NCBI RefSeq assembly: GCF_030646925.1
Contig: NZ_JAUSKL010000103.1
Location: forward strand, 1 to 33,029
DNA: 33,029 nt
Source of the DNA: Candidatus Binatus sp.
GTDB lineage: Bacteria; Desulfobacterota; Binatia; Binatales; Binataceae
Reading direction: 5' to 3'
Within the stretch, counting starts at the first letter, position 1; every line of letters starts with the position of its first letter. The notes under the pieces are model-generated. The model was not told the DNA's origin and ran no database searches. It saw nothing but the letters and a program-made list of their open reading frames with translations. Position numbers and translations under genes: made by a program. Of the stretch, positions 2,158-3,498 are shown piece by piece.

Positions 2158-2703
2158 TCATTGCGCCATGAGCTGGCGAGCGTAGTCCATAATGAGTTTG
2201 AAATCGTACGGGTGTTCCTCGAACGTGAACGGATTCCACACACTGCGGTTCGAAGTGTCGAGAAAGTCCCCGCCATAGACATGGATCGCGAGCATGGGCC
2301 GGTCGGAGGGATTTTCGATAGCGTGAACAGCGTCTTCGCCCAGCACCACGGTATCGCCAGTTTTCAGGTCTTTCCCGCCGGCCTTCTCGAGAGTTTTGCC
2401 GCTGCGACGGTAAAAGGTGTTGTTCTCCTGGCCGTCGCAGACGCCGATCACCGCCCACATGTGATGATTATGCGGCGGCGTTTTGAACTTGGGCGGTACC
2501 GCGGCCTTCAGGATCGTAAGGGTCGGCGAGCGAAAATAAATCATATCGCCCACTTTGGCTCCCGCGATGTCTTTGCCTTGGGCCACGCTCTCGAGCGCCT
2601 GCTTGACGCTGGCGGGATCGCGCATCGCTTCGGCCAGCAACTCCTTGACGGCAGACGCGGGCTTGCCTTTGCAGGACTCAATGAATTGATCGAGGTTATA
2701 CAT
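2158..2703 (-). CDS. Cupin-fold metalloprotein, thiol/cysteine-dioxygenase-like (COG5553-type)
   Basis: 181 aa, cytosolic. The cupin core carries PPHNHHMWAVIGVCDGQE at residues 76-93, giving candidate metal ligands H78 and H80, with H127 in EDAVHAIE as the third. This HxH...H pattern and the length match the double-stranded beta-helix family related to cysteine dioxygenase, which uses Fe(II) and O2 to oxidise thiols to sulfinates. Activity on cysteine is not shown by the sequence. The start has AAGGAG nine bases upstream of ATG 2703. It follows the MerB-like selenoprotein gene by 38 bases in the same operon, so a role in handling thiols or a released fragment is plausible but inferred. Confidence 0.75.
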   Translation of the reverse strand: MYNLDQFIESCKGKPASAVKELLAEAMRDPASVKQALESVAQGKDIAGAKVGDMIYFRSPTLTILKAAVPPKFKTPPHNHHMWAVIGVCDGQENNTFYRRSGKTLEKAGGKDLKTGDTVVLGEDAVHAIENPSDRPMLAIHVYGGDFLDTSNRSVWNPFTFEEHPYDFKLIMDYARQLMAQ

Positions 2704-2741: not shown

Positions 2742-3422
2742 CTATTGCAGTTTGGACATCGTGGCCTGAGCCGCTTTTCTCCCCTCCGCGCTGCGCAGCC
2801 AGGAGATGAAGTCGGTACGATTGCGGGCGCGGAACATCTCGCCGCCGAACACCTCGAGCCAGAAGGAAAGCGGTTTGAGGTGCTTCTGGAAGTCCGGGTT
2901 AAACTTCGTCCATTTGCGCGCGTGCTCTTCCGACCGGAAGAGATTCATCCCCGCTCAGCGAAAGGGCCGGTCTTCCGGCGCGCCGCCTACCGCACTGTAG
3001 GCATAGCCCACGATCGTCGCCGGTTGTAACGAGAGCACCTGTTCGTCTCGCATCTCGACAACGATCGGCTCTCCGCAATCCAGACATGGCGCATCGACCC
3101 GCACCCGCTTGCTCGGAAATAGCCAGCGTACCGCCAGCGCTTCAAACCCTCACTGGGCGAACCATTTCTGCTGGCCGTCGATAGTTATCCGGTACTGCGT
3201 AGGCTGGTTGTTAAAGGGCGGGAACGAGGCGATGTAGTCGGTTTGCGGATGGAGCCAGCCCGGGACGCCTGCGTTCATCAGGTCGGCGATGACTTGACGC
3301 CCCTCCTCGATGCCAACGCCCAGGTCTCCAGCCAGCTCGGTGTAGTGAGGCGCCTGGCCGGTACTGATAAAGTGTTGCATGATATTGTGAAACGCGCGAT
3401 CGAGTATGCCAACGTCGGTCAT
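2742..3422 (-). CDS. MerB-like (organomercurial lyase family) protein with two predicted selenocysteines
   Basis: A single frame of 226 residues from ATG 3422 (AAGGA seven bases upstream) to TAG at 2744-2742. It is interrupted only by TGA at 3152-3150 (codon 91) and 2957-2955 (codon 156). Residues 1-75 form a winged-helix-like domain as in MerB. Then come KWFAQ-U91-GFEAL, DAPCLDCGEP (C113, C116) and PEDRPFR-U156-AGMNLFRSEE. Against MerB (about 212 aa; C96, D99, C159) U91 aligns with C96, E94 with D99, and U156 with C159, with spacing of 65 versus 63. MerB protonolyses carbon-mercury bonds by thiolate attack. Both TGAs have SECIS-like hairpins downstream. A double nonsense pseudogene is unlikely, because both stops are TGA at catalytic positions and the frame is otherwise intact. 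Gene callers would split it into two short ORFs and lose the middle 65 codons. No merA or sel genes are in view. The true substrate is unknown. Confidence 0.88.
2925..2942 (-). promoter_or_regulatory. SECIS-like hairpin after UGA codon 156
   Basis: The minus-strand RNA reads CUCUUCC-GGUC-GGAAGAG, a perfect 7-bp stem with a GGUC apical loop. The loop starts 20 nt after UGA 2955. In E. coli fdhF the SECIS apical GGUC lies about 19 nt after its UGA, so both loop and distance agree with a bacterial SelB-binding element. It also has to encode LFRSEEH, so some of the stem could reflect coding constraint. Confidence 0.8.
3122..3138 (-). promoter_or_regulatory. SECIS-like hairpin after UGA codon 91
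   Basis: The minus-strand RNA reads GCUGGCG-GUA-CGCUGGC, seven pairs of which two are G-U. Opening the top pair exposes GGUAC. The GGU lies 18-20 nt after UGA 3150, matching the second hairpin and E. coli-type SECIS geometry. It is weaker than the hairpin at 2925-2942 because of the wobble pairs. Confidence 0.65.
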
Positions 3423-3498
3423 GATGGTTTCCTTCTCCGAACGGATCGAGTCGTCCACTCTGGCAAGGTGGAGCGCACCGGCAACGAGGCGCTAATGA

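Follow-up and report, generated by a model that had tools for sequence, protein, structure and literature searches.

Organomercurial lyase (MerB) cleaves mercury-carbon bonds with Cys96, Cys159 and Asp99 in its active site, as described in the accessible part of PMC4525700. Selenocysteine has already been reported in this family. The available portion of a 2026 inventory (PMC13188914) lists MerB only as SaoL, a form with a single selenocysteine (Sec) in a Cys-Sec motif, and one MerB-like entry stands in the accessible part of an older selenoprotein table (PMC9312934). As far as the available text of the inventory goes, the vast majority of its 119 families and subfamilies hold a single Sec, and MbdU is given there as a metal-binding double selenoprotein. 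MbdU resembles the protein described here in having two Sec and in being named metal-binding, but it is covered by a separate family model (NF045648) that none of the members scanned matches. A term look-up in the accessible parts of PMC5029168, PMC2398784 and PMC12013277 returned no mention of MerB, and the literature matches listed include no report of a double-Sec MerB; an earlier one in Haft and Gwadz 2023 or in Haft and Tolstoy 2025 is not excluded. MerB relatives with a single Sec (SaoL) are already known; for Sec at both positions we came across no report.

The stretch of DNA analysed here, called the window, comprises 33,029 nucleotides from Candidatus Binatus sp. and carries a MerB-family gene in which both catalytic positions are predicted to be Sec. 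An original prediction had described a frame of 226 codons with only two internal stops, both TGA, at 2742-3422. The frame and its coordinates are correct; the strand had been left unstated, and the gene lies on the minus strand.

2742..3422, minus strand: predicted double-Sec MerB-family gene, ATG to TAG, 226 codons (Pfam MerB E-value 8.1e-20)
3430..3434, minus strand: AAGGA, a putative ribosome-binding-like sequence 7 nt upstream of the ATG (sequence reading only)
3150..3152, minus strand: UGA codon 91, first catalytic position, aligned to MerB C96 (36 members of 40 have TGA and 4 have Cys)
3141..3143, minus strand: codon for Glu94, which stands where MerB has Asp99 (39 of 40 members have Glu and one has Asp)
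3084..3086, minus strand: codon for Cys113, at the place of MerB Cys117, nearly invariant in 35 members
2955..2957, minus strand: UGA codon 156, second catalytic position, aligned to MerB C159 (TGA in 40 of 40)

The start codon begins at 3422 and the TAG occupies 2744-2742, with the two TGAs as the only stops between them. A plus-strand reading of 2742-3422 was rejected; it has two in-frame stops, and the MerB match comes from the minus strand. The TGAs are separated by 64 codons rather than the 65 first claimed. This intervening region looks coding, as had been proposed, because most of the differences that separate it from two relatives are third-position changes (7 of 12 in one comparison, 26 of 38 in the other). 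It had also been expected that an ordinary gene call would leave two short fragments. An ORF list with an 80-aa limit does recover the N-terminal piece (3150-3458, 102 aa), but as one fragment, not two. When the letters of the gene were shuffled 20,000 times, 162 shuffles contained neither TAA nor TAG, and exactly two TGAs were present in 31 of these 162, although this test ignores both the placement of the TGAs on catalytic positions and their recurrence in relatives.

The read-through protein scores 71.5 bits against Pfam MerB (PF03243), exceeding the gathering cut-off of 27. It does not reach the cut-offs of the MerB equivalog NF009710 (37 versus 193), of NF033555 (32.5 versus 200) or of the SaoL model NF040728 (39.8 versus a curated cut-off of 140). 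No model in NCBIfam (June 2026) is passed by the window protein, and the 35 members in our main alignment match these same three NCBIfam models only. That alignment, its profile and the predicted fold cover 35 of the 40 members, five found later being absent. In the profile, with MerB residues counted along the chain, codon 91 corresponds to C96, Glu94 to D99, C113 to C117 and codon 156 to C159. Both sites thus have an in-frame UGA aligned with Cys of homologues, and the residue test for organomercurial lyases (Cys at 96 and 159, an acid at 99) is met if Sec counts as Cys and Glu as Asp.

A structure predicted from the 35 sequences, with Cys in place of Sec, has a mean pLDDT of 92.7. MerB chains fill the top eight places in a structure search (Z 11.0-17.5; best match Z 17.5, rmsd 3.6 over 193 residues), and the next, unrelated structure scores 5.0. 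The fold of this model is that of MerB. Canonical MerB proteins (PDB 3f0o and 3f2f; MerB2, 5c17) share with it the fold, at Z 16-17.5, and the four aligned positions. However, the window protein carries Sec for both Cys and Glu for Asp99, is only 16-21% identical to them in structural alignments, and belongs to a host without MerA over cut-off.

A scan of genome contigs yielded four named relatives, from two Deltaproteobacteria-labelled bins, one member of Dehalococcoidia and one of Proteobacteria. Of 96 sampled genomes, counting that of the host, 21 contained a MerB-like match; one or two TGAs lie inside each of the 7 closest places and none inside the 14 distant ones. When 395 genomes of the phylum (again with the host's own) were searched, 26 matched at E 1e-20 or better, and 27 of the 30 listed places have two TGAs. 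The phylum to which the Dehalococcoidia genome belongs was sampled with 400 genomes; 4 of them carry a total of 6 places, five with two TGAs and one with a single TGA. The counts below are based on 40 members from 34 genomes, the window's included, after leaving out three broken copies (L057, L058 and L059) and three duplicates (L009, L010 and L088, the same genes as L014, L015 and L011).

Codon 91 is TGA in 36 of these members and Cys in 4, with Cys as the sole alternative seen. Codon 156 is TGA in every one of the 40, so that both TGAs occur together in 36. The claim that both catalytic cysteines of a MerB homologue are replaced by in-frame TGA is thereby borne out, together with the C96/C159 profile alignment, and random residues or other stops in homologues, which would have refuted it, do not occur at either codon in these 40 members. 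In a tree, the four Cys-type rows require four separate changes, whose direction depends on an unsure root; two of these rows, L012 and L091, lie on long branches. Two or three double-TGA MerB copies are present per genome in G176, G613, G170, G231, G141, G395 and G466.

Each TGA is followed by a hairpin with strongly constrained codons. In Escherichia coli, SelB contacts the loop GU of the fdhF SECIS element, and the putative elements of the window resemble that hairpin:

3117..3143, minus strand: SECIS-like hairpin 1 with a GCUGGC stem and G22 U23 in the loop (numbering starts at the U of UGA; pairing in 98.9% of 351 cells)
2925..2942, minus strand: SECIS-like hairpin 2 with the apical stem CUCUUCC-GGUC-GGAAGAG and G24 U25 in the loop (pairing in 99.2% of cells)

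Every Sec-type first site (36 of 36) and every second site (40 of 40) has the loop GU, displaced by no more than one base from the position in E. coli fdhF (23-24 from the U of UGA, confirmed on the fdhF sequence, versus 22-23 and 24-25 here). The fdhF element differs in stem sequence, and the window gene holds two elements. All 40 second sites have the loop GGTC. Pairing at the second site drops to 93.2% when the drawn lower helix of three pairs is added, and this helix alone is paired in 78.9%.

As judged from the aligned genes, synonymous-codon constraint is strongest exactly where a bacterial SECIS would be expected. At the second site, positions +5 to +9 show CTC for 33 of 33 Leu (background 0.24), TTC in 40 of 40 and GAA in 37 of 40, along with CGG for Arg in 40 of 40 (background 0.27) and TCG for Ser in 40 of 40 (background 0.18). 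Positions +4 and +5 are the most constrained at the first site, with TCG for 26 of 26 Ser (background 0.18) and CTG for 39 of 40 Leu (background 0.37). A milder bias extends beyond the hairpins to positions -1 and +1 around the second TGA (GCC for 19 of 21 Ala, AGC for 25 of 28 Ser), and codon constraint is therefore not confined to the stems. The binomial figures for codon bias ignore shared descent.

Compensatory changes are found at two pairs of the second-site apical stem. The number of doubly changed pairs was reached by 32 of 500 shuffles and the 6 doubly changed cells by none of 500, although the covariation score is equalled by a slide of +2, which weakens this evidence. No covariation was found at the first-site stem in the alignment of either double-Sec clade (the second is described below), because these stems hardly vary; pairing there appears consistent with a hairpin but is not proven by compensation. 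Folding energies of the window hairpins are unremarkable for the first (z 0.03) and modest for the second (z -2.47), and since the first-site value is weak we rely on codon constraint and pairing instead. Hairpin models score 62.1 bits at the first site (R2) and 66 bits at the second (R1), but the window is a training row of both, and E-values are flattered for such rows. A scan of the window with Rfam at gathering thresholds matched no family, so the hairpins rest on comparison and not on a curated family. The loop GU of the first site is lost in two of the four Cys-type members and kept in the other two, a loss as expected from decay of an unneeded element. The two that lack it, L012 and L091, retain an intact second-site hairpin and form a natural control. 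Codon constraint, pairing and the loop GU together support a SECIS-like hairpin 3′ of both TGAs, which the original prediction had left to be checked.

The host genome encodes tRNA-Sec (anticodon UCA, 74.2 bits), selA (580 bits), selB (334 bits, or 365 with a neighbouring match) and selD (383 bits), and so the absence of Sec machinery, which would have counted decisively against two Sec codons, is ruled out. selA passes the cut-off in all 33 other host genomes and in 29 of 33 relatives without a match to the protein. It was rejected as a predictor of the gene because it is not specific; the host machinery is permissive. The host selD (L082, G000:C58:64690-65616) has its own in-frame TGA close to the N terminus, the place at which SelD selenoproteins carry Sec. 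Two Cys tRNAs with anticodon GCA and a Trp tRNA with CCA were seen, in a set of 8 loci only and not the whole genome. A 91-nt tRNA called as Cys (GCA; L003, G000:C84:26566-26655) is of a size seen more often in tRNAs for Ser or Sec, and is perhaps a miscalled tRNA-Ser or perhaps an unusual tRNA.

Pfam MerB identifies 60 places in 50 of the 395 phylum genomes: 36 with two TGAs, 7 with one TGA, one with a TAA and 16 with no internal stop. Of the 43 that hold TGA, 29 had been found by the E 1e-20 search, and the other 14 were read individually. These include a second double-Sec clade (L094-L102) from 9 genomes, with proteins of about 250 aa, all nine of which have Asp at the position of D99. Its first-site hairpin differs, with GU at 31-32, and its second-site hairpin keeps the register, with U-A replacing C-G as the loop-closing pair in 5 of 9. 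The alignment with the clearest covariation (A6) joins the 9 second-clade genes to 8 family members hand-picked partly for variety, and is not a fair sample.

Five places combine a first-site Cys with a lone TGA, located at the second site. Two of them (L103 and L106) pass the SaoL cut-off, which places the Sec of SaoL, an SAO system selenoprotein, at what would be the second site of the window protein. The other three, L104, L105 and L107, score 54.8, 48.2 and 34.5 bits versus the same cut-off of 140; L105 and L107 may be incomplete. SaoL resembles the window protein in belonging to the MerB family and, as read from L103 and L106, in having Sec at the second catalytic position. It differs in having Cys at the first site, whereas the window protein has Sec at both and Arg before the second.

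A tree of 20 of the 40 members, the 9 second-clade genes and the 5 single-TGA rows separates the two double-Sec clades (support 100/99 and 100/100), but its deep forks reach only 92/78. The simplest reading is that Sec at the first site arose twice, but the deep forks behind it are weak. A wider scenario, which we put forward tentatively and would not yet rely on, is that Sec was gained stepwise, at the second site first, as in SaoL, and then separately at the first site in two clades with unrelated first-site hairpins, and that double-Sec enzymes make up a large class of organometal lyases that work independently of MerA and that surveys of methylmercury breakdown have missed because gene callers split them.

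A Pfam scan covered ten ORFs of the window that lie between 794 and 13742, and the gene nearest downstream of the MerB-family gene is the following:

2158..2703, minus strand: cupin-like gene, separated from the MerB-family gene by 38 nt (Pfam Cupin_2 23.0 bits; the cut-off of 27.2 is missed)

This gene adjoins the MerB-family gene in only three of 35 loci compared (the window, G003 and G038) and is a possible partner in the nearest relatives only. No conserved operon was found among the 35 loci, 18 of which are flanked by no more than about 1.5 kb; the neighbour cluster with the broadest spread comprises 4 loci with acyl-CoA dehydrogenases at various distances. MerA was not found over cut-off in the host genome (best 374 bits versus 454.45; assembly 98.37% complete). 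The protein behind this best hit, a MerA-like oxidoreductase (L086, G000:C30:56958-58310), has a CxxxxC redox motif and lacks the C-terminal Cys pair. Without a MerA over cut-off or widely shared neighbours, mercury as substrate receives no support from the host context. The earlier proposal that Sec occupies both attacking positions for mercury is supported for the Sec sites, while the organomercury function remains an inference.

We favour, with reasonable though far from complete confidence, a MerB-family protein with Sec at both active-site positions and an organometal lyase mechanism, in which selenium, substrate and catalysis are inferred. The computed support consists of the conserved double TGA, the hairpins, the host machinery, the fold and the residue alignment. 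SelB, guided by the hairpin directly after each UGA, would insert Sec at codons 91 and 156. The two selenolates may then grip an organomercury or other soft organometal(loid) cation, and Glu94, in the role of MerB Asp99, would deliver a proton to the metal-bound carbon. After protonation the hydrocarbon would leave, and the metal ion might be passed to small thiols or another acceptor. The parts of this reading are not equally firm: Sec at both sites is very likely, by calculation and without selenium data on the protein, and organometal lyase activity, for which there is no assay, is probable but unproven.

The complete explanation is held no more firmly because room must be left for the same double selenoprotein acting not as a lyase but as a soft-metal binder or chaperone, or as a redox protein with a diselenide between the two sites. 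We consider this unlikely but still a serious competitor. The lack of recurrent neighbours and of MerA over cut-off fits it, and up to three double-TGA copies per genome suggest diverse roles. NosL, a nitrous oxide reductase accessory protein, handles copper. A reference title in the available part of PMC8261052 describes NosL as homologous in structure to MerB; NosL does not appear among the matches listed by the structure search, although this carries no weight as a test. By chemical reasoning, release of product from Hg(II) held by two selenolates could be slow, a further point against a lyase. However, the general acid is kept (Glu in 39 and Asp in 1 of 40 members, Asp in 9 of 9 second-clade proteins), and a pure binder would not obviously need it.

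Readings without selenium fare far worse. UGA might be decoded as Cys or another residue by a different tRNA; natural Cys tRNAs that read UGA have been described, and Cys is the sole alternative at the first site. We nevertheless regard this as highly improbable, given a host with tRNA-Sec, selA, selB and selD, a GU-loop hairpin after each UGA, Cys and Trp tRNAs with the anticodons GCA and CCA in the 8 loci seen, and relatives in some of which TGA apparently ends the gene itself. Still less credible is a pseudogene or a sequencing error, even though three fetched copies are broken (L057-L059) and a TAA interrupts one phylum MerB (G309). The internal stops across the 60 phylum places are TGA in 43 and TAA in one, and differences remain concentrated at third positions both between the TGAs and beyond them. 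Sequencing error as the source of the TGAs is judged very unlikely on comparative grounds, because both recur in 36 of 40 members.

Sec at both sites of an organometal lyase, our preferred reading, would be unusual, as Sec would then provide both catalytic residues of a metal enzyme. Because TGAs are the sole internal stops in 43 of the 60 phylum MerB places, we infer that standard gene calls probably break TGA-holding MerB genes and that MerB surveys undercount them. The existence of natural Sec, mixed and Cys forms makes the role of selenium directly testable. If these proteins do cleave carbon-metal bonds, the window would encode an organometal enzyme that relies on selenium, in a bacterium with no recognised MerA. 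The finding hints at an unexplored selenium-based metal chemistry in uncultured bacteria.
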